Shown: piece after piece, positions 19,688 to 63,875 of the stretch
How the letters are laid out: each line of letters opens with the position of its first letter
Numbering within the stretch: the first letter of the stretch is position 1
Source of the DNA: Isoetes taiwanensis
Lineage: Eukaryota > Streptophyta > Lycopodiopsida > Isoetales > Isoetaceae
NCBI GenBank assembly: GCA_021234155.1
Contig: JAJEKV010000041.1
Span: 6,565,249 to 6,629,248 of the forward strand
Length of the DNA: 64,000 nucleotides
Reading direction: 5' to 3'
Notes under the pieces: generated by a model
What the model saw: only the letters and a program-made list of their open reading frames with translations
What the model was told of the DNA's origin: nothing
Databases searched by the model: none
Translations under genes and position numbers: made by a program

Positions 19688-19703
19688 CTAGACTTTGCTG
19701 CTA

Positions 19704-21197
19704 ATGGGTGAACATTGGAGGCAGCTGCCTGTTGGCACTGTTGCTGCACCTAGTGGCTGGTTTGTTCCTGATAGTATGAGGGGTCAGTTTGTTGACCACC
19801 AATTGTGGGGAGGGGAAGCCAATGCATTAGAAATGGCAACCAGCACAAGGGAGTGGACTAGATTGGAACAAGGCTTGTGTTGGGGGGAAAATGTTTTAAT
19901 TGATGAGGAATGCTCTTTGCGAGGTAAAACTGGCAAAAGTGCTTGGGACTTGGGCCAATCATATGGCAGTCAAGCACCATTCGACATAGAACAAACTGCT
20001 CTTCCAGAGCTGACTGAAAATTTCTCGAGCTTTCACTGCAGGGCAGATTTGGTAATATTAGATTGCAGTTCAGATGGAATTACACTAGAGAATAATGAAA
20101 AATGGAAGCATAGGGAGCTTCTTAATGGTTTACCCGATGACCTTCTTGAGAGGATTTTTGCTGCATTGCCTCTCCTCAGTCTGTTCCGAGCAAGAGCTGT
20201 TTGCAAAAGGTGGAATTTAATAATCGACTCCAGTTCTTTTCGGGCTCTTTGTGCCCAACATGCTAATCATAAACCTTGGTACCTCATGTATAAGGACTCA
20301 GAGAAGCCCATTGTAGTCGCATTTGATCCTTCATCTAAAAGGTGGCACAACTTTGTCCTTCCTCATTTTGATCCTATGACAAGTTTCGTTGCCTCTGCAG
20401 ATGGTCTGGTTTGTTTCATGGATAAGACCAATTGTGACATGATTTATGTATGTAATCCAATGACAAAGGCTTGGAGAGTACTACCTAAACCACCTGATCA
20501 TTGGATTTCTGATTACTGTGCAGTTTCAATGACAATAGGCAAAGATCAGAGAACTTACAAGATTGTTATTGCTCGATCAAAGCAAGTACCCGATGATTAT
20601 ACACAGTGGGATTTCTCTATTGAAGTCTATGATTCTGCGTTAGACTCTTGGATGAGTTCTAGCAGCAAGGTCTTGAAAGGATGGCGAGCAGGAGAAGAGA
20701 GCAATATCTGCAACGATATGTTTTATTGCGTTACGCACCCTACTTTTGGTGTTGGTCAGGATAACTCAAGGCATGGATTGATTGTGTATGATCTTTGTAC
20801 TACAACATTTCAAGATATGATTTTGCCAATGCCTTGTTCCCTCTCCTGTGTTAGACTGATGAGCCGTTGGGATCGTCTTATAATGGTGGGCGGTATTGGC
20901 ACATATGATTTTATTAAGGGGGTTGGTGTATGGGAGCTTGATACAGAATGGAAGCAGATTGCTAGAATGCCTACCAAGCTGTTTCATGGCTTTATAGGAG
21001 GTCTTGATGATGTATTTTCATGTTGCGGACATGGCGACCTTGTTTACATTCATAGTTATGGAAGTCCACAGCTGATGGTACATGATATATCTCAGGGATC
21101 ATGGAATTGGGCAAGAGCATGTCCTACTCTCAGGCGAGATCCTTTGCACCTCTTTGCAGGTTTCTGTTTCCAGCCACGTCTTGATATTTTAGTATAG
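19704..21197 (+). CDS. F-box/kelch-type protein, 497 aa
   Basis: A single uninterrupted exon. The start chosen is the ATG at 19704; the frame opens slightly earlier but without an ATG. Residues 1-135 are a poorly conserved N-terminal region. Residues 139-184 are a clear F-box (LLNGLPDDLLERIFAALPLL, then VCKRWN), the part that binds SKP1 in an SCF ubiquitin ligase. Residues about 195-497 form a kelch-like beta-propeller region with repeated aromatic strand motifs such as GLVCFMD, WDFSIEVYDS, LIMVGG and SWNWARACP, expected to hold the substrate. The layout (long N-terminus, F-box in the middle, C-terminal propeller) resembles Arabidopsis At5g15710 and its relatives. There are no transmembrane segments. 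It is the only intact host gene in the window; the substrate is unknown. Confidence 0.9.
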   Translation: MGEHWRQLPVGTVAAPSGWFVPDSMRGQFVDHQLWGGEANALEMATSTREWTRLEQGLCWGENVLIDEECSLRGKTGKSAWDLGQSYGSQAPFDIEQTALPELTENFSSFHCRADLVILDCSSDGITLENNEKWKHRELLNGLPDDLLERIFAALPLLSLFRARAVCKRWNLIIDSSSFRALCAQHANHKPWYLMYKDSEKPIVVAFDPSSKRWHNFVLPHFDPMTSFVASADGLVCFMDKTNCDMIYVCNPMTKAWRVLPKPPDHWISDYCAVSMTIGKDQRTYKIVIARSKQVPDDYTQWDFSIEVYDSALDSWMSSSSKVLKGWRAGEESNICNDMFYCVTHPTFGVGQDNSRHGLIVYDLCTTTFQDMILPMPCSLSCVRLMSRWDRLIMVGGIGTYDFIKGVGVWELDTEWKQIARMPTKLFHGFIGGLDDVFSCCGHGDLVYIHSYGSPQLMVHDISQGSWNWARACPTLRRDPLHLFAGFCFQPRLDILV

Positions 21198-27695: not shown

Positions 27696-27893
27696 GCCTC
27701 CTCTGGGCCTCAAAACAAGATGAAGGGTAGACTCCTTCTGAATATTATAGTCAACCAAGGTCCTGCCATCTTGAAGCTGCTTTCCAGCAAAAATCAACCT
27801 CTGCTGATTAGGAGGAATTCCTTCCTGCCTTAACATTATCAATAGTATCAGAGCTCTTCACTTCAAGAGTAATGGTTTTACCAGTAAGAGTTT
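27696..27893 (-). pseudogene. Ubiquitin gene fragment
   Basis: On the minus strand the text encodes ubiquitin from Lys6 on ([19 protein letters not shown], then NVKA), loses about 14 bp (residues KIQDK) with a frameshift, and continues as [17 protein letters not shown] to HLVLRPRGG. The C-terminal diglycine is present and followed by non-ubiquitin residues. Substitutions relative to plant ubiquitin include D39N, E52Q, A57V and L73P. The 5' side is cut exactly at the first base of the adjoining LTR (27894), so residues 1-5 are missing. The matching 5' part was not found beyond the other LTR. It is a pseudogene. Confidence 0.85.
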
Positions 27894-28481
27894 TGTTACG
27901 GCACAAGCTCAGGGGAGCGACGCAGAGGATTTGCAGAGATGAACAAAGTGGCAAAGGTGTTTGTTAGCATTTTGAAATCTAAATGTGTGGTGGAATTAAA
28001 GCAAGAAGCTATTTTAATATAAAAGGCAACTGCCTGCTAAAAAAAGGCTAGTCTTGGAGAGGTCTATAAATAGAAGTTAAACTTCAATTGGATATATCTT
28101 AGCAATCAGAGCTGCGATTGAGGCGATTTTACTTCATTGGAACCGACTCAGAGTCTAGTTTCCAATTGGAATGGCACATTCTATAATTCGTCCATATGAG
28201 AGAGTAATGGACGAAAATGTGATAAGAGGTCATAAATTACTGCAGCAGCGACATCACAATTTTGTAACCAAGTCTTTATGATCCGCAATTGATCCCAGAG
28301 AAGTTGTTCAGTTGAACAACAGAATTCTCAGTTTTGGGAAGAGCCACAGAGATCCTTTGCAGTGTTCGCAAATCTGAGCCCGATCGGTGGTGAATTTGTG
28401 CCAAAAGGTCTTGTTCCTGGGTTTTAAAGTTGTGTTCGATTAACTGTGACGACTAGTTTTGCAGGTAGAAAAGACAGTTCG
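27894..28481 (+). repeat. 5' LTR of the outer element
   Basis: About 590 bp, closely similar over its whole length to 42808-43397. It contains CTATAAATAGAAG (near 28067), a good TATA box for the element transcript. The 3' boundary is set by the end of similarity. Confidence 0.8.
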
Positions 28482-28488
28482 TATCAAT

Positions 28489-28808: not shown

Positions 28809-30295
28809 TGTGACGTCCCCTACTCGTATACGATGCCCGCACCGTATACAAACAGGAGTTCATCCCCCGCACCAGCTCCACACTGATACAGGGCCCTCCA
28901 CATATCACTGTGACCGTCTAGAGTCCACAGTGGGAAGAGTGAAGGGGTCATTTTACCCCGTCTCCCTCAGGGTCTACCTAGCTGCGGAAGCGTAAACATA
29001 CACGTCAGTAACATAACATCATATATCCACCTCGAAGGGTGGCACATCAACATCTGCGTAGACGAAGATCAGCACAATACAAAGGAAGTTTCTACCCAAG
29101 GCTCAGACTCCAGGGGATGACTGACTAGCTTGGGTCTCCGAGTTCGGTCGCGGGCATTTAATCATGACGATGGATTGGGCTGGCATAAGAACATGGCTTA
29201 GGGTTGTCCACTCCATCCGCCCCTCCTATGCACACTTTGCAGAGTAGGTTGAAAAGTGTTGGGACCTGGATCAGCCTGCGGGTGCATAGCCAAAGGGGCT
29301 ATTCCCCAAAGTTACATCTCCCAGTCCCGATGGGGCGGTAGGGATCACTCCCTCCGTAGATCTACATGTCGACCCAAGGTGACTAGAGAGCCACTGCCCT
29401 TATTCGACTTAACCCACTGGAAGGTGAACACCTGTCGAGCCCATGCCTTACCCACACTCAGTGGCAAGCCATTAGACCTAGTCACTCTGATCCCCGGTAG
29501 ACTTTACACGCCAGAGGGATCGGTCAAGGGTCCTCATTCTAAGCCAGTCTGGCCCCTTCACCCACAACCAGGTGGGCTCCTGTACACAGGCCGAATTCTA
29601 GTAATGCACTAAGAGGGACTAGCTAGGAGTATCATCTACTAAGCTTTAAGTCTCTACCCCCCTTCCCAATACAATGAGTCCACATAATATATCCGTCCAT
29701 CATATGAACATAAGTAATAAGAACTAATCTAATACATAGAGTTAGGTTCTTTAGTTAGAGTCAATGTCGGGACACCTTGCTTATTACTAAGGGCGATTTA
29801 ATAGGCTAAACCCTCTTTGGTTCAAGGCCGGAATAAGGTTTAGGCTATTCAATCGACCAAATACCTGATCCCTGGTTCACTCCTCTTGATCCGAAGGCAT
29901 CCATGTCTCTGTTCTGCTTCGGGATGCGGTCGGAAGGATGATCTGACAAGCTGGGGCGCAATGGCAGATCGTGGGAGTTGGAATTGACTCCTCAGGCGCG
30001 CGAATCGGAGCTCGGGAGGTCTGTGGGCGAAAAAGGGAATGTTAGGGTTTGGTGCCTTATGTAGGCTATCAGTTAGGTTTAGGGTTTCCATGACCTTGGT
30101 CTACCTTTAATGGGTTAAAGGTCTAAAGGTGCGCGCATTGCTAAGTGTGCGCATCATTGCAAGTTGCCCCCTAGGGCGTCCTTGCTTGGGTACACGCGTC
30201 GGCATTACCGCGTCGATTGGGCCGGCGATATGCGGCGTGGATTTGCAAAGATGCGGTATACGTCTTGGGACCGTATAGCGTACTGGAACGTCACA
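28809..30295 (-). repeat. 3' LTR of the chromovirus
   Basis: On the plus strand it starts TGTGACGTCCCC and ends GGAACGTCACA, so the ends form a short inverted repeat (TGTGACGT/ACGTCACA). It is paired with 40798-42277. Confidence 0.9.
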
Positions 30296-31128: not shown

Positions 31129-34100
31129 TTAATCTACACAGATCGACATGCCTGAGCCGATTTCTTCGGAGATGACCTTGCCGTCCCATTGCTCCATAAA
31201 CTGTGGGTATTGTTTTTCCAGATCTCTTTTAAGTACCCATGTGGCGTCTTCCACTGGCAAGTGTTTCCACTTGACCAAGTATTGGATGAACTCCGATCTC
31301 CTTGTTTTCTTGAAGGCTTTATCAAGAATTAGCTCTGGAACTATTTCTAACTGCTCTTCTGTCATTTCCAACATCGTTGGTGTATCCAAAACTTCCTCTG
31401 GATTGGGAGTATGCTTCTTCAGCAGACTCACGTGGAAGACTTTGTGGATCTTTAAGTGTGCTGGCAAGTCTAACTTGTAGGATTGGTTACCCACTCTTTG
31501 GACTATTCTGAAGGGTCCAGCCCACCTTGGAGCAAGCTTCTTGCAATTTCCGATGCGGAGTTTCGCCTGCTTCACTTTGATCTTGAGCCATACATCCTCT
31601 CCAACTTGGAATTCTCTGACTGTCCGGTGTTTGTCGGCAATGCTCTTCTGCCGACTCCTTGCTGCTAGAAGATATCCTCGAACTTCTTCCACAAGCTGCT
31701 GCATGTCGCTCAACATCTGCTGCGAAACTTCCACTTTTGACACGGGATTGTGCCAAGTGTCTGGAGTTAGGCATTGATAGCCGTAGTTGATCATGAACGG
31801 CGACATTTGGGATGATTTGTGCTTGGTGCTATTGTATGCAAACTCCACCAAGTGAATAAATTCCTCCCACATCCCTTGCTTGTTCCAGACATAGTTTCGG
31901 AGCATGTCTTCCAATATTCTGTTGATACGCTCCGTTTGCCCATCCGTCTGTGGGTGATAGGCCGTGCTCATGGATAGCTTCGTTCCAATCGTTGTGAAGA
32001 GATCCTGCCAGAAGGCACTCATGAACTTCGGATCTCGGTCAGAGATAATTTCCCTGGGCATGCCATGGAGTCTGAAGATCTCTTTGGTGAAGAGCTTTGC
32101 CGTATCCATAGCTGTGTCCGTGGTCCTGGGCCATCTTCGACAATTTGTCGACCACGACCATCAAGGCATCCTTACCTCTTACTGTCCTTGGCAGTCCTGT
32201 TATAAAGTCCATGCTGACGACCTCCCACTTAGCGTTTGGCACCGCTAATGGTTCCAATGCCCTTGGTATTCGAAGTTGTTCTGCCTTTGTTTGCTGGCAT
32301 AGCTGACACTCCTTGATGTAGCGGGCTATCTGCTTCTTCATTCCCGGCCAATAGTAGCTGCTACGCACTTTAAAGTATGTCTTCATGAATCCTGCGTGGC
32401 CGGCTATTGGGCTGTTGTGGGTGTCGTGGAGGATCAACTTTCTTACTCCAGATGATTCCGGCACGCACAACTTGTTCTTATGGTATAGGAGGTTACTTTC
32501 CTTCTTAAAATTTTTGAAGGTTTCCCTCTCCTTATCCGTTCTCGCTTCCTTGCACAAGCTTGCCCATACTTCCTTGAAGTCCATGTCCGTTGGCAAGGTT
32601 TCTTCTATCTTTTTCCCGAAATCGCTGAAGAGAGTCGAGATTGCGTTGCAGTGCACCCTGGTTGTCAGTTGATGCCTTGAAAGCGCATCTGCTACCACAT
32701 TAAGCTTCCCGGGCTTGTAGACTATCTCAAAGTCGTACTCCTCGAGAAACTCCATCCACCTTCGCTGCCTCAGATTGAGATGTGGCTGCGTGAATACGTA
32801 CTGGAGGCTCTGGTGATCAGTGTCCAGCTGGAACTTCCTCCCTAAGAGGTAATGCCTCCAGATTCTCAATGCCCTGACAACTGCTAGCAGCTCTTGGTCA
32901 TGCGTCGGGTAACGCGTTTCGGCGTCGTTCATCTTCCTTGAGTCGTACGCTACTACCCGTTCTTTTTGCATGAGCACTGCACCTGTGGCTATCTTGCTTG
33001 CGTCCGTCGCCACTAACTTGTCCTTTTCCGGGTCTGGCAGGGTTAAGACGGGGGCGGTTGTTAAAGCTTCCTTTAACAATTCAAATGCTGCCTGGGCTTT
33101 CTTGAGCCAATGGTCTGCCCAATTTTTCACTTTCTCCGCCTTTGTCAAGTCTGTCAGTGGGGCTGCTATCTTTGCGAAGTTCTTCACGAACTTTCTGTAA
33201 TACCCTGCTAGGCCAAGGAAATTTCTGACCTCATGGACGTTCTTTGGTGCCGGCCATTGGATTACTGCTTCAATCTTGGCGGGGTCTGTCGAGATTCCTT
33301 CCGCTGAAATCACATGACCGAGGTATTCCACCTTTTCTGTTGCGAAGTGGCACTTCGACAACTTGGCATACAACTGATGCCTTCTTAACTTCTCGAACAC
33401 CTTTCTTACGTGTTGTACATGCTCTTCAACAGATTTGCTGTACACCAGAATATCGTCGAAGAATACTATCACAAAGGTGTCCAAGTATTCTCAGAAAATG
33501 TCGTTCATGAGTCTCATGAACGTAGCTGGGGCGTTAGATAAGCCTAAATGGCATTACGGTGAACTCGTAATGCCCATACCGGGTTCTGAAAGCCGTTTTG
33601 TGGATGTCCTCTTCCTTTATTCTGATCTGGTGATACCCTGACCTTAGGTCGATCTTGGAGAAGACCTTTGCCCCTTGGAGCTGATCCATCAGGTCGTCTG
33701 ATCTGGGGAGTGCGTACTTGTTCTTGATGGTGTGCTTGTTCAATTGTCTGTAGTCTATGCACATCCTCAAGCTTCCATCCTTCTTCTTGACAAAGAGGAT
33801 GGGTGCCCCAAATGGTGAGACACTAGGCCTGATGAAGCCTAGATCGAGCAATTCTTGGAACTGCTTCTTTAGCTCCGTGAGTTCATGTGTGGTCATTCTA
33901 TATGGGGCCTTGCTCGTCGGCTTGGTCCCTGGTTCGAGTGCTATCTCACACTCCACTCCCCTGTAAGGAGGAAGCTTCTCGATCTCATCTGGAAAAAGAT
34001 CGTGGAACTCCGTGATCAAGTTGGCGATTTACTTGGGCAACTTGCTGAGCACTTTGTCTTCTTTGCTTCCCTCCGACTCGGGTTCCTCAACCTCGAGTTT

Positions 34101-34867
34101 GAAGATGTATGCTACCTGCTCACTCTTTATAGACTTGAGCAGCTTCTTAACAGACATACACTGCATGATGGGAGTAACTCCTTTACCTGTGATTTCAATG
34201 GCTTTGCCGTCGGGTGTTGGGAAGGTCACCTTCCGCTTTCCACAATCAATGATGGCCCCTGCAGGCCCAAGATACTCCATTCCAATGATCAAGTCATACT
34301 TGCCAATGCCCATTACTTACGCCCCATCCGGATATTAATCCACGGCAAGTCGATGTCGAAGTTGATCCTTTTTCCAGGTGTATGTCTTCTTTGCTCAAAA
34401 CTTGCCAAGATTACGAGTCTTGGTTTGGACTTTAGGGGTTTCAATTTCAACATTTCAACCATCCTCGGGGATGCGAAGTTATGGCTACTTCCGGAGTCTA
34501 TCAAGACTATGAAAGACTTGGCCTTTGCCTTCCCTATTGTGGAGATTACCTTATACTGGGTCTCTGCCTGTTCTGTATCTATAGCAGCGAAGATGTGGCA
34601 CTCACCCTGAATGTAATCGCGTGCCTCCTCGCCGTCTTCGTCGTGAGTGTCCCATCCGCCCAGATGCGCGGTGGCCGAGCTCATAACAAATGGGCGGTTC
34701 ATTTGTTGGTTGGCGGTGGAAACATCTAAAAGCGGCTGCTTCTCTATGCATTCCTGCCTTTTCTCCTTGGGCATCGCCTGTAAGAAGGACCGTACTGCTT
34801 TCGAGTAATTGGAACCTTCTTGTTTGTCCTTGAAGAACACACCTTTCTTTCCTGCTTTGTTTCCCAC
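31129..34867 (-). pseudogene. Chromovirus pol: protease, RT, RNase H, integrase, chromodomain
   Basis: Order on the minus strand: protease with IVLIDSGSSHNF (34.5 kb); linker YDLIIGMEYL; reverse transcriptase with [33 protein letters not shown] and catalytic FFDDILVYS; RNase H with [13 protein letters not shown] and the DTDHQSLQY end; integrase zinc domain (H...H...CQLC) and core with [17 protein letters not shown] and HPQTDGQTERIN (D, D, E); then a chromodomain YLVKWKHLPVEDATW followed by YPQFMEQ. Defects: frame change near 34313, TAA at 34029, shift near 33535, TGA near 33495, and a shift with loss of codons near 32120. The chromodomain defines a chromovirus; in known cases it guides integration to marked chromatin. 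The copy cannot make a full polyprotein. Confidence 0.92.
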
Positions 34868-35850
34868 AGTTTGCTATTGTATGGGGACTTTCTTTGGACT
34901 TGGGCTGGCTGCCCTAGGGACTTGTAGCTCCTGTTGCTTTCCCTCTATCGATAGTAAGGCTGCCTCGTGTGTTGTTCTCGGCCCGAATCCTTACAAACTA
35001 ATTGCTTTGGATTCTGCTTCCGATACTGTTTTAGGGTCTATTGCCCTTACAAGTTTCCTGATTTCCTCGTTGAGCCCTTCTATGTAGCTTTCCCTTTGCA
35101 TGTTTCTCGCTTCGGCTTAGACACATACTGACCTTAGTCTCATGAACTCTTGATTGTATACGCACCATCTTGTATCCCTGGCGCAATCTGTAGAAGCTTT
35201 AGACTTGTGTTCAGAGGAACATAGTGGTTCTTAAAGCTTTTGAGAACTTCTTAAATCGGCATGCATCTCTTTCAAACCATGGGCCTTGGCATAGCCCTTC
35301 CACCATATCGTCGTGCGGCCCCCTTCGGGTTGGTTGTTGCCACCACTGCCTCTATCCTTATCCTTCATGCGTAGGCATTGCCATACTAAACTCATTTAAA
35401 TCGAGCCATGCCTCTGCCTCTAAGCCGGATCTGTTCTCGCCCTAGAACTGTTTGAGTTTCCGGGCTTTCCATACATTGCCGAGCGCTGAATCCACCTTCT
35501 TCTGGTAATCCAGGGCCTTAGTGTCCTTCTGTCTGCCGTCTCTACGGTCCGGCGCCTGCTCGGCCTCTTTCTCGGACTCAGAATCCGAGGTCGAGCTTGA
35601 GTCGGAGGTCTCTGTGCTAGGGGACCTCCTTCTCTTACTCCTCCTCTTGTCTTTCCCCGACTTTTGGGGTGTCGTTTGTGGCCCGGATGATGCTTGGGCT
35701 GCTAGTAGGGCCTTTATCTGGTCCAGCTCTGTTCGCATCTGCGACATCTCCTCTTCAAATTGTCGGGGACCATATCCTTGAACGAGGTTCCTTTGAAGGG
35801 GTTGTCTGTCGGGGGTCTCTTCATCTGTTGGGCCTTACGTTACTTTCGAC
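34868..35850 (-). pseudogene. Chromovirus gag, degraded
   Basis: An open piece of about 100 codons (35747-35442, extended upstream in frame to about 35845) has a helical start (QFEEEMSQMRTELDQIKALL) and then a Lys/Arg/Ser-rich stretch and DYQKKVDSALGNVWKARKL. Downstream to 34868 the frame is broken many times. Neither the usual gag core motifs nor a CCHC zinc knuckle could be seen. Assignment rests on position directly before protease. Confidence 0.6.
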
Positions 35851-36049
35851 CGATTCGTTGTTCCCTATCTGCATACACAATTGGTCATGGCTGTACAGTT
35901 AGTTTTATTTTGTTCTCTTGCATTATATGTGTTGTTGGTATAGTTGCGGGACAAAAATACATCAACAAAACATTTAAAGTGCAAAAGAAGTTATATTCAT
36001 ATTATATAATATGTTAATATAAAAGGACTTCCGGGATCAAGATTCCTAA

Positions 36050-37560
36050 CTATTCTTGACAACGCCGGTAGGATGGATTATCCTCTAGGAACTTCTTCAC
36101 TTGGGCTGTTCCCACTGAATGACCTAAGTTCCTAAGGACGTTGACTGAAGATCCACCCTGCAAAGCTCCCGCCAACTCTTCTATCCTGCGCTCGGAGGTA
36201 TAGGCGACGGTCATTGCCAGTCTTCCCTGCCGTCTGTAAGGTATGGCGAAGTAAAAAACATCGAGTGCTACCGCTCTCTTCACCAGGATGGCATACTCGG
36301 TGTTGGGAGCTAGCCGAGCATGCCGGCCAAAGCCTGAGAGTGCAATTAGCATCGATACTCCTTCCTCGCCCCTGGGGGTGAATTTGCAGTGTATTACCGC
36401 TATTCTTCCATCCATCAGCAGGGGAAGGTAATACCGCAAGGACCTGTCGTTGCGTGACGGGTCCTTGCCTCCTCAGCCTCCAGCTCTGTGTCTACCGGCA
36501 TAGTCATCGACTTCCACCGTGGTGAGCTCCCTGTAGTCTCTGACTGTTGCTGAAGCTCTCCTTAGGTCGAACTCGCCTCTTCGCTCCCGGGGAGGCGTTG
36601 TCGAAGAACTTGCCGTTAAGATGTTCGAGGTTGCGTGGCGGATCCCCATCTGTTCCTGTAGAGCAAGGAACTCTTCCTCCGTCGGTAGTTGCCCTGCCTC
36701 CATAATCTGCCTGATGTTGCTGTAGGCTTGCATATCAGAGGTCGACTCTCCCGTGTAAGTGTCGGCTTCCCTTACTTGGAGTGGGAAGTCGGAGGTTCCT
36801 CGGACGATGAAGTCGTCCAGGTCAGTTCTCCGGAGTTGGTGCAGCAATTCGTCCGGTCGATACTCTCTTTCCCTGCACTCTGGGAGGTTTTGGATGTCGC
36901 TTAGGAGCAAATATTCTTCGCCTTCGAGGATGATGGGGGCTAGGCTTGTGATACCTAGCCCAAGGGGTGGCGCGATCCTAAGAGTTTGCCGTGCAACTCT
37001 TGTTCTGCTAGCCGCTGCTCTTCCGCTGGGTCGAGCTCGACGTAGTCCTCATCCTTTTCCTCTGACTCCTCGTCTTCTTCTTTTCCTTCTTGCTCCTGTT
37101 CGTACTGCGAAAGGAGTTGTTGCGCTGCTGCTGTGGCTATTGGGTCCACGTCCATGGGGGGAATGGAGGTTTCTCCCATGGGGTTCTCGGCACGGTGGGT
37201 AAGGAAAATTGCTAAGGCAGAGTTGAAAGAGAAGTACTTGGTCCTGTTGACAGTCAGGACCATTGGCTCGGGCATGCGCTGGGCCTTGTTTGTGAGATAC
37301 TTGCCAATGTTTGGAATATCGCCTAAGGCTGCTTGAAGGGATTGCCTAGGAACAAAGTAGCCTATGCAAGGTGGAAGCTGCACTAATGATGGCTCTACCC
37401 TAGCTTGAAATTCAGACAGGACTCTGCTATATGTTGGGGTTGCATGCAAGATTGCTTGGACATCTATTTCTTTCCGGAAGATTCAGAAAATCTCATCGAT
37501 GTCAGCCTCGGCAGCATGAGCGCTGGCGCTGTACCATCGCCTGAAATCAGAAGTTGCCAT
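36050..37560 (-). pseudogene. Chromovirus extra gene B, unknown protein of about 500 aa
   Basis: The start ATG at 37560 (MATSDFRRWYSASAHAAEAD) lies 114 bp after a TATA box. The frame runs with TGA at 37483, an acidic stretch (EEDEESEEKDEDYVELD) near 37.05 kb, one frameshift near 36.99 kb, TGA at 36473, and a final TAG at 36050. Repaired length would be about 500 residues. Other visible parts are GYFVPRQSLQAALGDIPNIG, APPLGLGITSLAPIIL and LRYYLPLLMDGRIAVIHCKF. No transmembrane segment, signal peptide, zinc finger or known enzyme motif was seen, and I recognise no family. It sits between gene A and gag on the same strand with its own promoter, which argues for an independent mRNA. Coding is supported by long shared frames and codon-like composition across two stops. 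Confidence 0.6.
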
Positions 37561-37682: not shown

Positions 37683-37875
37683 GAAAAGGGGAAAAACCCT
37701 AATTTTTGGGTGACTTGGAAAATTCTTGGGGTTGGGCGGTTCTAGCCTATGTTGAGGTCAAAATGGGAATTGGAAGACTAATTTAAGGGTTTGAGCATGA
37801 CTGGATTACCTAAAGATGCTAATACAACAGGTTGAATATCATTTGGACAAGTTATGGTGAAGAAATGGTAGGAGG

Positions 37876-37940
37876 TCTCACAGGTAGTGCCTCGTTCAAA
37901 AGCTATACTTTAGTTTCTTGACCAGGCGCGACGTGTGAGA
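37876..37940. promoter_or_regulatory. Palindrome B1 (about 65 bp)
   Basis: Arms TCTCACAGGTAGTGCC and its near complement GGCGCGACGTGTGAGA, with an inner AAGCTATACTTTAGTTTCTT core. It is one of four related palindromes, here 190 bp upstream of the gene B TATA box. Confidence 0.7.
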
Positions 37941-38074
37941 CATCACTCTCATTTTGATCAAAACATGTCCAATTTGGGTAAAATAAGGGTGTAAGGATGA
38001 CAGACTCATCAAATCAGGCAGACTTGATCCCTTATTTGGTCAATTTGGAGCTGTTTTGGGTAATTTTAGGCAAG

Positions 38075-38140
38075 GTGTCACAGCTAGCGCCTCGTCCAAA
38101 AACTAAACTTTAGTTTCATGACCAGGCGTGACCTGTGAGA
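38075..38140. promoter_or_regulatory. Palindrome B2 (about 65 bp)
   Basis: GTGTCACAGCTAGCGCC pairs with GGCGTGACCTGTGAGA around AAAAACTAAACTTTAGTTT. It lies 199 bp from B1, between the end of gene A and the promoter of gene B. Confidence 0.7.
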
Positions 38141-38247
38141 CATCACACTTTTCGAAAACCTGCTATTCGTCCTAATTAAGCAAGATTTGACATATAACTA
38201 CTCAAAATCGATTTATATTACAGAATTTTCGATTATTTACAAAATGT

Positions 38248-40116
38248 TTAATGGCGTTCTCCCTTGATGCGACTAGCAAGATACATGTCTTGCCTCATAA
38301 GTGTTACTCGCTTTGCATGAACAGTGCAAGCCGTCGAGTCCTCAAAATGTTGCACTATTTTCTGCTCCGCCGCTTCCTGTAGTGCCAGCAGCATCTCATC
38401 CGTGACCCTCATGTCAGTCTTGAAGTCCTGCATCACTTCTCTGACTAGACGGGCAAAGGGGGCACGGGGGATTAGGAGGCCGTAGCTGCGCTGAAAGTGT
38501 CTGATCTCTCTCAGTGCTCTTCTTTCGGTCTCCTTCCTGCTGGGTTTCTTCTTAGCTGGTCTCTTAGGGGCCTTGGGCTTTGGTGGTGGCGGCCTTAGAG
38601 TCTGCTGCTTTGTCGGATGTCCACCCTCGATGGTGCGTACTCTGTTCTCCTGATAGTAGGAGTTGTAGGCCTCCCACTATGCCTCGTGCTCTCGCATCTT
38701 TCGCTCGTAGATCTTTACGGGGTCCGTGACATAGGACTCTCGGGCAGGCCGGGGTTGCTTCTTCCTGTCCCACTTTGGATAAGGAGGGAGCTTCTGCACT
38801 TTGTCCGGTTGCTCCTCCTCGGGCGCTACCTGCTGGGTTACCACCTGCTCAACGATCGGGGGTTTGGAAGAGCTTGCCCCCTCAGTGTTGGGGTTATGGT
38901 CTTCGTCAGAATCCTCGGAGGAGGCCGGGGGCTGATCAGGTGGCCGTTCGGTAATGGTGACCTTGGGGTTGGGCTTCTTTACTTTTGGGACCTCCTTGAG
39001 CTTTCTTGGGCTCCCCACCCATTTCCCTTTCTTCTGCTTGAGTTCCTCTGCCGCTTTCGCCTCCTCCTCTTCCCTCTTCCTCTTCTTTTGTTCCCTTTTC
39101 CTTTCTCGGCGTTCATACTTTGCGATAAACGCAGCGAGGTCTTCTTCCTCCGCCGGCTCAAGCCTCGGCTCCCGCTGTTCCTCTCGTTCCTCGGCCTCCT
39201 TCTCGCGGATCCAGGCTTCGAGTTGCTCTTCAATGGTGGGCTCGGGAGTCGGTAGTCTCTGCTCCTCACGAGCCTTGGTCCTCAGGGTTGCCCTTAAGGG
39301 GCTATTTATAGCCAAATGGCTATATTTTGAATATTTTCGAAAATGAGATACTAAAGCTGAATAGGTTACTATTGAAAATAAATTATATTCTTTCGCCAAA
39401 GTTTTACCATTTCGTCTGCCCGCCTTTCTTAAATTAGCCATGCATTCTTAAGCTCAGATCTAGAGTTTCGCCTCCAGTTCCATGGATCTAAGTGTTTAGG
39501 ATCATAGATTATCCCCTTAACAACATTGTAGATCAAGTAATTGTTTGCTAGCTCTAGTGGACCATAGTAGAATACTCAAAAAATCAACAATTACTCAAAT
39601 TTTGCTAAACATAAATCCTTAATCCTGTAAGTTGTATGTGAATTGACATCTAATTTATTTATTCCAATTACCACATTAACGTTGGCAAGGTTTGCCAGAG
39701 TTTCTATAAAACAGTTCAAGTCGCAAAAAGCAATCGCCTACAAAATTAATATAGAAAGCTTATGATTCGCCTCACCTTCTAAATCACGCCTATGCAGATA
39801 TGGCCTTAAGGGCAACCCTGTTGGTCCTTCGTTCTCGCTGTGCTCCCTCCTCTTCTTCTTCAATTATCTCCGTTCCTGCTTCTGAGTGCACCTCTTCTTC
39901 TCGGTCGACCTGCCGGTCTCTCTCCTCATTCTGTTCTGCTCTCCGCTGGGATCCTTCACTATTGTGCTCATTCGAGGGTTCTCCCTCACTCGAAGAAGAT
40001 TGACCGTTGGGGTCAAGAAGGCGCTCCTGAAGCATGCGCCGAATCGTGCTGGAATCAAGGGCGCTGGTCGATTCGCCTGGGCGGGCTTTCCTGGCAGTCT
40101 ATTTTGTTCGGGCCAT
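38248..40116 (-). pseudogene. Chromovirus extra gene A: histone H3-like protein with long charged insert
   Basis: Start ATG at 40116 gives MARTK-stop-TARKA, i.e. histone H3 residues 1-9 with Gln5 changed to TAG (40099-40101). Then follow about 340 residues of acidic and basic runs (EIIEEEEEGAQRERR; RRERKREQKKRKREEEE), a hAT MITE (39283-39820), a TAG at 38677, a basic Pro/Lys linker, and from 38517 an H3 fold: [59 protein letters not shown], ending RIKGERH. The fold is 89 residues from ALREIR to the end, as in canonical H3, with about 51 identities by hand count. Removing the MITE with one target copy leaves one frame of 441 codons including stops. HFQ, LLIP and TLMR are CENH3-like; loop 1 is canonical length. 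Role in the element is inferred. Confidence 0.85.
39283..39820. mobile_element. hAT-type MITE, 538 bp
   Basis: The 17 bp terminal inverted repeats CAGGGTTGCCCTTAAGG / CCTTAAGGGCAACCCTG are exact. Both sides carry the identical 8 bp TTGGTCCT (39275-39282 and 39821-39828), the target duplication length of hAT elements. CAGGG ends are typical of hAT. It has no transposase. It interrupts gene A in its charged region. Confidence 0.92.
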
Positions 40117-40224: not shown

Positions 40225-40328
40225 GCTTGGCAAATTTTTAGGTCAAAATTCAAGTTGCTCTATTTAACATGCCAAGGCACCTATTTACTTAAAACTTACA
40301 CTTATTTCAGACTTTTTCTACTTATTGG

Positions 40329-40393
40329 TCTCACAGGTAGCGCCCTGTTCAAAAACTAAAGTTTAGTTTTTAGACCAGGCGCTAGCTGTGAGA
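40329..40393. promoter_or_regulatory. Palindrome A1 (about 65 bp)
   Basis: TCTCACAGGTAGCGCC pairs with GGCGCTAGCTGTGAGA; the core AAAAACTAAAGTTTAGTTTTT is itself a perfect palindrome. It lies about 105 bp upstream of the gene A TATA box. Confidence 0.75.
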
Positions 40394-40519
40394 TCTTACA
40401 CATTTTTAAGTAATTTAAGTAATTTAAACATGCTATTCTAACTAATTCCTACCTTGGAAGTAGCCTTACCATATTACTTTTCTCAAATTCATCAAGTTTA
40501 GTGTGTTCTTGGCTCGATG

Positions 40520-40584
40520 TTTCACAGGCAGCGCCCTGCTCAAAAACTAAAGTGCAGTTCTTTGACCAGGCGCGAGCTGTGAGA
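40520..40584. promoter_or_regulatory. Palindrome A2 (about 65 bp)
   Basis: TTTCACAGGCAGCGCC pairs with GGCGCGAGCTGTGAGA around AAAAACTAAAGTGCAGTTCTTT. It is 191 bp from A1. Confidence 0.75.
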
Positions 40585-40784
40585 CCACCTTGCCTGGGGA
40601 GGTTTTGGCTCATTCTTTTTAGTCTTATTAAGTTCCAATTCACTTAACTGTTACTAGCTTAGCATAAACTAAAAATGAGAAAAAAATTTCCCACTTTTCG
40701 AGGCTTAAGGGTCCTATCAAGTTAGTACTACTGGGAGCATGGTCAGTGCTTTGCTCTTGGTCTCCAAGAACATGGCTCTGATAC

Positions 40785-40797
40785 CATTGTGACGTCC
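40785..40797 (-). promoter_or_regulatory. Primer binding site of the chromovirus
   Basis: On the minus strand TGGTATCAGAGCC follows the 5' LTR after one base; it is a perfect match to the initiator tRNA-Met 3' end complement used by many plant LTR elements. Confidence 0.9.
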
Positions 40798-42277
40798 CCT
40801 ACTGTCATATATCGATGCCCGCACCGTATACAAACAGGGAGTTCATCCCCGCACCAGCTCCACACCGATCTGAGGGCCCTCCACATATCGCCGTGGACCG
40901 TCCTAGAGTCCACATTGGGAAGAGTGAAGGGTCATTTTACCCCGTCTCCCTCGGGGCCTACCTAGGCTGAAGCGTAAACATACACGTCAGTAACATAACA
41001 TCATATATCCACCTCGAAGGGTGGCACATCAACATCTGCATAGACAAAGATCAGCACAATACAAAGGAAGTTTCTACCCAAGGCTCAGACTCCAGGGGAT
41101 GACTGACTAGCTTGGGTCTCCGTGAGTTCGCAAGGCATGTAATCATGACGATGGATTGGGCTGGCATAAGAACATGGCTTAGGGTTGTCCACTCCATCCG
41201 CCCCTCCTGTGCACACTTTGCAGAGTAGGTTGAAAAGTGTTGGGACCCGACTATAGCCCGCCGGGTGCATAGCCAAAGGGGCTATTCCTGGGTTACATCT
41301 CCCCAGTCCCGATGGGGCAGGTAGGGATCACCCCCTCCAGAGATCTACATGCCGACCCAAGGTGACTAGAGAGCCACTGCCCTTATTCGACTTAACCCAC
41401 TGGAAGGTGAACACCACCCCACGGGTGTCGAGCCCATGCCTTACCCACACTCAGTGGCAAGCCATTAGACCTAGTCACTCTGATCCCCGGTAGACTTTAC
41501 ACGCCAGAGGGATCGGTCAAGGGTCAGAACACGAACCTCATTCTAAGCCAGTCTGGCCCCTTCACCCACAACCAGGTGGGCTCCTGTACACAGGCCGAAT
41601 TCTAGTAATGCACTAAGAGGGACTAGCTAGGAGTATCATCTACTAAGCTTTAAGTCTCTACCCCCCTTCCCAATACAATGAGTCCACAGAATACATCCGT
41701 CCATCATATGAACATAAGTAATAAGAACTAATCTAATACATAGACTTAGGTTCTTTAGTTAGAGTCAATGTCGACACCCTTGGCTACTAAGGGCGATTTA
41801 ATAGGCTAAACCCTCTTTTGGTTCAAGGCTGGAATAAGGTTTAGGCTATTCAATCGACCAAATACCTGATCCCCGGTTCACTCCTCTTGATTCGAAGGCC
41901 CATGTCTCTGCTACGCCGGGATGCGGTTCGGAAGGATGCTCGACAAGGCAGCGCGCCGCGGTCGTGGGAGTTGGAATTGACTCCTCGGTAGCGAATCCGG
42001 ACTCGGGAGGTCTGTGGGCGAAAAAGGGAATGTTAGGGTTTGGTGCCTTATGTAGGCTATCAGTTAGGTTTAGGGTTTCCATGACCCTTGGTCTACCTTT
42101 AATGGGTTAAAGGTCTAAAGGTGCGCGCATTGCTAAGTGTGCGCACCATTGCAAGTTGCCCCCTAGGGCGTCCTTGCTTGGGTACACGTCGGCGTACACG
42201 TCGATTGGACGGCGTGTACGCGTGACGGTGCAGTACGATATACGTCTTGGGACCGTATAGCGTACTGGAACGTTACG
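40798..42277 (-). repeat. 5' LTR of the chromovirus
   Basis: It pairs with 28809-30295. The right end reads GGAACGTTACG where the other copy has GGAACGTCACA, so the terminal bases have mutated. Confidence 0.9.
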
Positions 42278-42793: not shown

Positions 42794-42807
42794 AGACGAG
42801 AAGGAAT

Positions 42808-43397
42808 TGTTACGGCACAAGCTCGGGGGAGCAACTCAGAGGATTTGCAGAAATGAACACAGTGGCAAAGGTGTTAGTTAGCATTTTGAAATCTGGATGT
42901 GTGGTGGAATTAAAGGAAGAAGCTATTTTAATATAAAAAGCAACTGCATGCTGGAAAAGGCTAAAGTCGTGGAGAGGTCTATAAATAGAAGTTAGACTTC
43001 AATTGGATATATCTTAGCAACTAGAGTTGCGATTGAGGCGATTTTTACTTCATTGGAACTGACTCAGTGTCTAGTTTTTGATTGGGATGGCACATTCCGT
43101 AATTCGTCCATATGAGAGAGTAATGGCTGAAAACGTGATAAGGGGTCATAAATTACTGCAGCAACGACATCACCATTTTGTAACCAAGTCTTTATGATCC
43201 GCAATTGATCCTAGAGAAGTTGTTCAGTTGAACAACATAATTCTCAGTTTTGGGAAAAGCTACAGAGATCTTTTGCAGTGTTCGCAAATCTGAGCCCAAT
43301 TGGGTGGTGAATTTGTGCCAGAAGGTCATGTTCTTGGGTTTTAAAGTTGTTTGGATTAACTGTGACGGGTAGTTTTGCAGGTAGAAAAGTCGGTTCA
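42808..43397 (+). repeat. 3' LTR of the outer element
   Basis: Closely similar to 27894-28481, including the TATAAATAG box near 42980. The 3' boundary at TTCA is the end of similarity. Confidence 0.8.
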
Positions 43398-43725
43398 TAG
43401 AGAGTTCAAGACAATAGCCAGCCTATTCGAGGACAAGAGTAGATCTAGGACAATAAGTTCTTCAACTCAAAGGTCAAGCTATGCAGATATAAAGATACAT
43501 CACCTCCGACAGCAAACCAATCACGGAGGAGAAGTCATGAGGCTTTGCTCGCCAGGAAGATGCACATGGGGGGACAAAGGCCACAAATTGGAAGCTGGAG
43601 AAGTGCTAGCAATCAACCACTTCCACAAGCTCTCTAGATGCAACATGAGGTTCAAAACTGAGGAGCGTGATCAAGTGCAACTAGAAAGTACCACAAACCA
43701 GAAGGCAACAACATAGCACCGGATT
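43398..43725 (+). other. Flank of the outer element; unassigned frame
   Basis: A frame of about 110 codons is open through 43716 and rich in His, Arg and Ser, but no family was recognised and its upstream part lies in the LTR. Probably chance. Confidence 0.3.
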
Positions 43726-55739: not shown

Positions 55740-56944
55740 ATGATATAATGCTTGCTGAATTTAATGTGAAACCTCTGAGGGTTGAAATTGCCTTTCAAAC
55801 AGTGACTTATTTACATCAGTTACACCGTTTTGGACAATCACAAGGTGGTAAAAAAAGACTTCCCTGGTTGGCATATGTGTCGTCTAAAATATACATTGGT
55901 TTAAAATATACGTTGGCAGACCAGGGTAAGCGCTGTTGGTCCTCAAGGACATCTAAATTGTTTGAGAAGATGGGCTTCTCTATGGGAAATATCCCACCTT
56001 TTCAATACAGTATAATGGATGATAATCTGAATTTTACTCAGCAAAAAGTTTATCAACTTATACGCCATGACTTGGAGTGTCTTTATGTTTCAAATATATG
56101 GGTAAATCCCGTCAAAGATCTGCCTGCTAAAAAGAAATTCTATAAGGATAACTATATCAGCAGATGGTTTTATCGTAAGGCCTGGATATTTGGATATTGA
56201 TCTGCCGAATAAAGTGAGATGCTCTATGGGGCAGTTTAGAGTGTCATCTAACCAGTTGGAGATTGAGGTTGGTAGGGCGAAAAATATTAGTCGTGAAGAT
56301 CGGAAATGCCCAATGTGCGATTTTATAAGAACAACATTTTATTTTTACCTGCCCAACTTACTACAGCATTAGAGGCAGATATCATTGTCTTTTTTAGAGA
56401 CCCCGCATCTCTACGATACCTAGTAGTAGAATATTACAATTAGAAATGTGTATCTCACTTTGTATATGAACTATCCCTAGAACGGAGAAATATTCTCAAA
56501 CAAAATAATCCAACAGGCCTGAAACAAACAGAAATAACCTTTTTATCTGAGTCAAACGATGATAGAAGGCATCACAGAAGAGGAAGTATCCTGACCCTAA
56601 AGGGTGACTTTGGCACTGTCTAAGAAGATAAAACAATCTGCAGCCATGAAACATAAAAAGTCTTTCCAGAATAGGCTGAGCATCAAGCATCAAAGCAAGC
56701 CAAGAAAAGGTATTATGAATTACTTTGCAGCAGTCACAAGAACAAATGGGCTATCCCCATCAAAATCTACCTGAGCAGATTCTTAGGGTTTCACTATAAG
56801 TTCCGTTAACTTATTATTTTTGTTTGTATATTTTAGATAACAGGAGGGTTTTCCTCCTGGAGGTCTTGAATTCTGTATGTGTTATGGTCTTATAGACCCT
56901 TCGGATCTTACGTAGACGTTAATAAATCTTTCTTTCTTTCACTC
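55740..56944 (+). pseudogene. LINE 3' fragment with (TTTC)n tail
   Basis: The frame 55748-56200 encodes the region after reverse transcriptase (LAEFNVKPLRVEIAFQTVTY, then LIRHDLECLYVSNIW and DLPAKKKFYKDNY). A second frame gives NQLEIEVGRAKNISREDRKC and CPMC, the start of the zinc-binding domain. The same domains occur at 62.6-63.9 kb in another copy (LAEFSATPLQLDAAFQLVSF). It ends with TATAGACCCTTCGGATCT, CGTAGACGTTAATAAATC and TTTC repeats (56886-56944). 5' truncated. Confidence 0.75.
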
Positions 56945-62580: not shown

Positions 62581-63875
62581 AGAAAGAAAGAAAGAAAGAT
62601 TATATTAACGTCTACGAGAGACCGCTTGGGTCTATGAGACCAAATATACATCAATCATGTCCAGCTAGGGGCGCATTTGCAGCCACCTAGAGATATTGCA
62701 TAAAAAAGGAAAAAGAAAACTAAAACAATGAGATTAAGAAACTTTTGTCTTCTTGGCCACGGGCTCAAAGTATAAAGTAATGTCAGACTTGTTTTCTCTT
62801 TTGAAGGACTGCTTATGTTTATCCTTTACCGTCCGCTTTCTTCTTCTCGACACTTTCATGGTTACTCCTTTTGAGATTGGATGAGATGGTCCGAGGAGAG
62901 AACCTGCCTTCCGTTTATTATCATTATCACCTCCAATGAGAAAGAAAGTGATCAGTCTTTCGCGTGGGATCGTTTTTCATGTCCCGCTCTTCCCCCAGCT
63001 TGCTCCTTTAATAGATTTCTTCTATGCACAGTCATTTGGTGAAGAAAAAGAGCTATACATTTCTGATCCTCATAGGCGATCAGTTTGGAGAGGGAGGTAG
63101 GTTCCCGAAATAGGCAATGGAATCTGCCCCGTATTTCATAATAGACTGGACATGTGAAGATGAAATGTTCCTCTGACTCAATTACATTCAAGTGACATAG
63201 TCTGCAGATTCTTTTCGGCTCTCCACCTTCGGTCTACTAGCGACCAGCTTCGATCTCGAGCTGATGAGATGAGACCCTGAGCTGACCGATAGCATGTCTC
63301 ACCTTATAATGCGAGGTGAATATTCAAATATCCTGGTCGCTCGATGAAACCATCTTCATTGATCTCAAGGAAGTGATCTTTGTAAAATTGCATCTTGGTA
63401 GGAAGATCACTTGGGGTTAACCATGTCCTTGATATGTATAAAATTTCCAGATCGTGCCGTATGAGCTGGTTCTTCTCTTTTTCAAGTCTCTTTTTTGCTC
63501 CAGGTTTTACCGCTGTATTAGCTGCAGCTACATTATGTTGAAAGGGGGGCAGGTTTCCCAAGCCAAATCCTAAGGAAGCAGCCCATTGCGATGCTTTTGC
63601 GTACCAACATTCCTGCACTCCCTTTTCAGCCAGATCTTTGGAGCTCTTGAGAGCAATCCATGGAAGCCTGCATTGGCCTTGCTGCGAGGACCCGAGTTGG
63701 TGCACTTTATGCAAAAAGGAGACTAACTGGAATGCTGCGTCCAGTTGAAGCGGAGTGGCTGAAAATTCTGCCAATATGATTGAATGTGGCACAGATGCTT
63801 TGCTCATAATCATTTTGGACAGAAAATAAATTTGCAGTCTGTTGAGTGGAGAAGATGATCTGAACAGCAAAACAC
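62581..63875 (-). pseudogene. LINE 3' fragment with (TTTC)n tail
   Basis: Minus strand from 63870: SVPHSIILAEFSATPLQLDA, LIRHDLEILYISRTWL and DLPTKMQFYKDHF (region after RT). Then after a shift ICRLC..NVIESEEHFIFTC (zinc-binding C-x2-C...H...C), and a basic tail region MKVSRRRKRTVKDKHKQSF near 62.85 kb. It ends with CATAGACCCAAGCGGTCTC, GTAGACGTTAATA and TTTC repeats. 5' truncated near 63875. Same family as 55.7-56.9 kb. Confidence 0.75.

Follow-up and report, generated by a model that had tools for sequence, protein, structure and literature searches.

A Ty3/gypsy chromovirus of the quillwort Isoetes taiwanensis holds an H3-type histone gene between its primer binding site and gag. The element is 13.5 kb in length and lies on the minus strand of the window, by which is meant the whole stretch of 64,000 nucleotides that was analysed. 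The context of the gene in other copies identifies it as cargo of the element, and the pattern of substitutions among those copies supports the view that it is kept by selection.

The chromovirus and its parts

The two LTRs of the window copy are 90.8% identical over 1522 columns (K2P 0.084), and they enclose a primer binding site, which we take to be of the tRNA-iMet type, a purine-rich tract ahead of the 3′ LTR, and pol domains that follow one another, by Pfam, in the order protease, RT, RNase H, integrase, chromodomain (Table 1). The enclosing Ty3/gypsy element described by an earlier sequence-only reading of this DNA is thus confirmed in each of these parts. All the marks of a chromovirus were found (an LTR pair, a primer binding site, gag, the PR-RT-RNaseH-INT series, a chromodomain and a 5-bp target duplication), with gag assigned by position and the duplications taken from two other copies. 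The window copy has no 5-bp target duplication at the element ends. A direct repeat of ~595 bp, 91% identical, lies outside both of its LTRs (27893-28483 and 42807-43399), and the window element may be a nested or recombined insertion.

About 4.9 kb of extra sequence separates the primer site from gag. Four related imperfect palindromes of ~70 bp flank the H3 gene, a pair to either side, with predicted RNA folding energies of -33 to -39 kcal/mol; 66-bp hairpins upstream of the H3 gene are present in 16 of 20 copies. A second accessory ORF (ORF2) follows the H3 gene and precedes gag. In the C1065 copy it is a single frame that counts 529 codons from stop to stop, its dN/dS between copies is 0.15-0.23, and it has no Pfam or NCBIfam family above cut-off and no PDB match better than E=0.45. 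Elsewhere in the window, the interval 19695-21197 (+) encodes an F-box protein with a beta-propeller (Pfam F-box E=2.1e-9), probably a host gene, and two ORFs at 55748-56200 (+) and 63304-63870 (-) are alike by eye, with a LIRHDLE motif, a DLP...FYKD end and no Pfam family at E<=0.01.

Table 1. Parts of the chromovirus, with positions in the window, strand, and basis of assignment or remark
Feature	Position	Strand	Basis or remark
5′ LTR	40788..42276	-	pairwise identity with 28809-30294
Primer binding site TGGTATCAGAGCC	40774..40786	-	sequence; 1 base inside the 5′ LTR edge
Hairpin 1, ~66-bp imperfect palindrome	40519..40584	.	repeat comparison and RNA folding
Hairpin 2	40328..40393	.	repeat comparison and RNA folding
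H3-type gene, N-terminal part: tail tip MARTK(stop)TARK and acidic segment	39821..40116	-	sequence
538-bp insert in the H3-type gene	39283..39820	.	inverted ends CAGGGTTGCCCTTAAGG, 8-bp target duplication AGGACCAA, absent in L003
H3-type gene, charged linker	38677..39282	-	TAG at 38677-38679 in the window copy
H3-type gene, C-terminal part with H3 histone fold	38248..38676	-	Pfam Histone, PDB; stop codon 38248-38250
Hairpin 3	38073..38149	.	repeat comparison and RNA folding
Hairpin 4	37873..37949	.	repeat comparison and RNA folding
ORF2, second accessory ORF	36050..37482	-	three overlapping or adjoining frames in the window
gag region, assigned by position only	34900..35900	-	degraded in the window; 343 codons open in the C1065 copy
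Protease	34313..34867	-	Pfam RVP_2 E=1.5e-4
Reverse transcriptase, N-terminal part	33534..34019	-	Pfam RVT_1 E=1e-14
RT, RNase H, integrase zinc domain	32039..33484	-	Pfam RT_RNaseH E=9.1e-35, Integrase_H2C2 E=2e-20
Integrase core end and chromodomain	31129..32109	-	Pfam SH3_Tf2-1 E=1.9e-21, Chromo E=5e-10
3′ LTR	28809..30294	-	LTR-LTR comparison

The H3-type gene in the window copy

The interval 38251-38676 (-) encodes an H3 fold that matches the Pfam Histone family (PF00125) with E=3.1e-29. Its best PDB chain is H3.3 (E=5.7e-31), and H3 is found in 60 of 60 among the best 60 of 176 PDB matches. The fold runs from ALREIR to RIKGERH over 89 residues, the canonical H3 length. The profile search that the earlier reading had proposed therefore returned a significant H3 match, and the 89-residue fold that it had read from the letters was borne out; its hand count for the window of about 51 of 89 residues shared with canonical H3 agrees with 52 of 89, at equal length and with no gap, for the sister copy L003 against a provisional plant H3.1 reference. 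Chance similarity to H3 is ruled out by the E-values and by the copies.

The tail begins at an ATG at 40116 and reads MARTK-stop-TARK. The window copy is broken by this TAG at tail codon 6, by the 538-bp insert at 39283-39820 and by a further TAG at the end of the linker. An intron between the tail and the fold was considered and ruled out, because the gap corresponds to the insert, which has inverted ends and an 8-bp duplication and is absent in L003; from the size of the target duplication, the insert is presumably a hAT-type MITE. The single frame from tail to fold that had been read here holds for its start at 40116 and for 6 of 35 distinct copies, in which the frame stays open from the ATG of the tail across the fold, whereas the frame of the window copy is interrupted, and in all 29 of the 35 copies are not open.

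Copies across the genome

The fold piece of the window was searched against the organism's own genome (1,658,258,908 bases in 1110 contigs, a single genome). Where the earlier reading had allowed for the case that no other copy of the family contains the frame, at least 150 scored matches were obtained, spread over many contigs and all with at least 82% identity (82-98% for copies other than that of the window); in 124 of the 150 the matched part is free of stops. Any copy number above 150 rests on 10,929 first-look candidates, which are unscored. The L003 copy comprises one open frame of 444 aa, made up of MARTKQTARK, a charged linker of ~345 aa with acidic and basic blocks, and the H3 fold.

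The context of the gene was sampled in 20 copies, fifteen from the top 30 matches and five lower ones, each over a stretch of 8 kb whose last base is that of the H3 match. An LTR end, whole or partial, and the leader with the primer site lie upstream of H3 in 19 of these copies, and L038 has neither. Two copies were followed to the far side, where two more hairpins, ORF2, gag, pol and a 3′ LTR follow, and both have matching 5-bp flanks by eye (GGCAG and TCGTA). The LTRs of these two copies differ by K2P 0.048 and 0.104, which indicates that they are not fresh insertions. Host DNA around an element is ruled out by the shared LTR end and leader and by the LTR-to-LTR copies with target duplications. 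The H3-type gene is thus element cargo rather than flanking host DNA, as had been claimed from the window copy. At a further locus, L053 (G000:C1032:11103600-11109000), the H3 cassette is present as three tandem units of ~1.68 kb that are ~97% alike; the joints fall within a hairpin, and units 2 and 3 are without the ARTK tail tip.

Selection on the tail and the fold

The tail was absent from the search query and hence provides a fair test, and it could be read in 27 of the 35 distinct copies. Seven of the eight that dropped out have no tail match and the eighth, L016, is one base out of register (MAWTKQTAGK); L010 was kept although it is shifted inside the tail. Over tail codons 2-10 of the 27 copies, pN/pS is 0.068 (pS 0.519, pN 0.035), and at codons 11-12 of the same copies pS is 0.439 and pN 0.252. 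ARTKQTARK is exact in 18 of the 27, with codons that vary freely. Residue 10 is A in 19 copies, P in five and another residue in three, and S in none of the 27. The predicted tail tip is thus the canonical ARTKQTARK, in which K4 and K9 are kept and S10 is replaced.

For the fold, the pooled pN/pS over 595 pairs of the 35 copies is 0.099, and that of the stretch ahead of the fold is 0.173; because protein similarity was used to rank the 35 copies, dN is biased downward here, a bias from which the tail test is free. Between L003 and L049, a pair picked for heavy synonymous change, the fold has 12.5 nonsynonymous differences, and the lowest of 1000 neutral draws was 23 and their mean 34. Among three copies with both sides known, dN/dS is 0.07 and 0.01 for the fold and 0.15-0.28 for ORF2, gag, pol and the linker. 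Judged from these substitution patterns, the fold is under strong purifying selection, and this constraint together with the tail pN/pS suggests that the gene works for the element. That a captured host histone gene merely rides along without use is most improbable: 29 of the 35 copies, that of the window included, are broken between tail and fold, as passive cargo would allow, but selection acts on both tail and fold although the synonymous sites have changed heavily.

The synonymous divergence between L031/L051 and L043/L052 is 0.91 in the H3 part, 0.18 in pol and 0.22 in ORF2. A second pair of copies has no such excess (0.15 in the H3 part vs 0.12 in pol). The excess in one of the two pairs may indicate that the H3 module has been exchanged between lineages.

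Nature and origin of the fold

The plant references used for H3.1, H3.3, rice CENH3 and Arabidopsis CENH3 are provisional sequences, and in comparison with them the fold appears to mix H3 and plant-CENH3 features. The L003 fold leaves C110, H113, K115, R116, T118 and D123 unchanged, all of which have roles in histone contacts, and differs from H3 at R63, K64, Q68 and L103. It shares 54 of 90 residues with the rice CENH3 reference, which by identity is about as close as its 52 of 89 with plant H3.1. At the 12 sites where the two CENH3 references have one residue in common and H3 another, the fold is CENH3-type at eight, H3-type at one and neither at three; at 11 of those sites, L003 has the CENH3-type residue at eight and L048 at seven, and none of 120 H3-type database proteins has it at more than five. 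FastTree places the element fold with the CENH3 references, and the protein begins with MARTK, as plant CENH3 does according to these provisional references.

These features would suit a histone derived from CENH3 that guides the element to centromeres or competes there, a reading that is nevertheless quite improbable. The support of the FastTree grouping is 0.458, and BLAST bit scores place the H3.1 and H3.3 references above those of rice and Arabidopsis CENH3 for four of four element folds. Over the sites that differ between the H3.1 and rice CENH3 references, the fold splits 10 to 10, and over those that differ between H3 and the Arabidopsis CENH3 reference it splits 11 to 19 in favour of H3. 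The longer loop 1 of the CENH3 references is absent from the fold, where loop 1 has the length found in H3. The element protein further differs from plant CENH3 in keeping QDFKTD, in its ARTKQTARK tip, in its linker of ~345 residues and in being encoded by a retroelement. The matches also lie on many contigs, and repeats are evenly distributed in the genome of Isoetes taiwanensis according to the available part of its description (PMC8566536). A CENH3 origin of the fold is accordingly offered here as a lead.

Transposable-element proteins are often masked in annotation, so that a missing database relative is weak evidence of absence elsewhere. With that reservation, the closest H3s to the fold piece in the protein database have at most 61% identity among the best 120 of 1354 matches, the linker piece has no match at E<=10, and the whole L003 protein matches, among the best 120 of 2203, histone-domain proteins only, which cover at most 50% of the query. 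A close annotated relative of the element H3 was thus not found beyond the histones themselves among the matches listed, and 16 pattern matches in viral contigs yielded 0 relatives. The predicted monomer model of the fold alone is of low confidence (mean pLDDT 60.7).

Possible functions of the element histone

We give an even chance to the reading that the accessory gene between the primer site and gag encodes an element-owned H3-type histone that acts via host chromatin. The H3-type protein would be translated from the element RNA, its fold would pair with host H4, and the protein would enter nucleosomes, either of the host or of the newly integrated element, with the K4/K9 tail tip held out on the long linker arm. 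This would change how the host silencing machinery, or the chromodomain integrase of the element itself, reads element chromatin. Chromatin targeting, packaging of DNA and escape from silencing, which the sequence-only reading had put forward, would be conceivable uses of such a gene. Two observations speak against entry into nucleosomes, namely a linker far longer than any standard H3 tail and the changes at R63, K64, Q68 and L103, and they make incorporation less than certain; the many copies that are not open from tail to fold speak against use of the gene.

The same tail also bears on a rather unlikely alternative, in which the protein is a histone mimic whose ARTKQTARK tip weakens silencing of the element by occupying the host proteins that write or read K4/K9 methylation, while the fold only binds H4 or a histone chaperone. 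The tip is kept while the residues that follow it vary, the long linker with its acidic blocks is unlike a nucleosome tail, and S10 is absent from every tail read; without S10, K9 would lack its neighbouring phosphorylation switch. However, the fold is strongly constrained as well, and a pure tail decoy would need no such constraint.

The integrase suggests where an element-owned histone might find a partner. Its chromodomain, read against the published rule, looks like the plant group II type. As far as the available text of that study goes, the first cage aromatic, and as a rule the third as well, is missing from such chromodomains, and the factor that interacts with them was not found (PMC3350952). 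The lack of cage aromatics makes classic H3K9me binding by the integrase doubtful, and the lack of a known partner leaves room for one made by the element. Both this missing factor and the place of the gene, ahead of gag in an element with a chromodomain integrase, agree with a role as part of the particle or the integration complex, in which the protein would package element cDNA or bridge integrase to nucleosomes, for example as the missing chromodomain partner. We think such a role unlikely, since a packaging protein has no need of a canonical K4/K9 tail tip. A more specific form of the element-owned histone, to be treated as a tentative and rather doubtful idea, is that a histone of CENH3 lineage has been turned into a tool of the element: it would form element-specific nucleosomes or tethers, present the K4/K9 tail on a long arm and be recognised by the group II chromodomain integrase or by host silencing readers, which would give the element its own chromatin address.

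Relation to known systems

H3 has already been published as cargo of fungal hAT DNA transposons. The elements of Pyrenophora tritici-repentis and of Pseudocercospora and its relatives are, like that of the quillwort, transposable elements that multiply an H3-type ORF (PMC3538342, PMC6710886; both available in part). In the same available portions, the P. tritici-repentis element is a DNA transposon with 26 very similar copies, and its H3 has tail insertions and fully matches neither H3 nor CenH3 (PMC3538342), and the P. fijiensis element has hundreds of copies inactivated by RIP (PMC6710886). By contrast, the quillwort element is a plant LTR retrotransposon with many diverged copies, in which selection was measured on both tail and fold. 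No hAT transposase or terminal inverted repeats surround the quillwort H3 gene, which lies within LTR elements, the hAT-like 538-bp insert being a distinct piece located inside the gene of the window copy.

The bracoviruses, xenomaviruses and NCLDVs that carry histones have DNA genomes, whether as viruses or as particles of viral origin. They too are selfish elements with a captured core histone (H4 in bracovirus, H3 in xenomavirus and NCLDV), which combines a conserved fold with an altered tail, and the available part of a review of such single viral histones contains no word beginning with "retro" (PMC9145170). Among plant LTR retrotransposons, orchid Ty3/gypsy elements have likewise acquired, in an additional ORF, a regulatory domain of host type, an AlkB m6A demethylase, but their cargo is an RNA demethylase whereas that of the quillwort element is a histone. 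In the portion available of the associated study, which screened 121 angiosperm genomes, the main text uses "histone" twice, in neither place for an element domain (PMC9289625). A survey of plant H3 variants that includes one lycophyte has, in its available part, no word beginning with "retrotranspos" (PMC4357034). Group II plant chromoviruses share with the quillwort element, on the partial text at hand, the LTR, PBS, gag, the PR-RT-RH-INT order and a chromodomain at the integrase end (PMC3350952); the quillwort element differs from them in its length of 13.5 kb and in having two accessory ORFs and four palindromic hairpins in the interval from primer site to gag.

The literature search for an LTR element with a histone gene found none, and its coverage of subscription journals was poor, so that this is no proof of absence. 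The novelty claimed from the window copy, that histone genes had not been described as cargo of plant LTR retrotransposons, therefore holds to the extent that no report was found for LTR retrotransposons, and it has to be narrowed in view of the fungal hAT elements. H3 cargo in an LTR retrotransposon appears to be new; H3 as transposon cargo is not.

Significance

Histones normally serve the host in silencing transposons. Here, a high-copy LTR retrotransposon family maintains its own H3 gene under selection, including the very tail tip on which K4 and K9 are methylated. This points to an element that handles host chromatin with a histone of its own. The element H3 is also a candidate for the partner of the plant group II chromodomain; the factor that interacts with this domain is reported as not found in the part of the study available (PMC3350952). 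Many natural variants of the H3 tail and fold are available within one genome, and the ability of retroelements to write chromatin marks, or to fake them, becomes testable.
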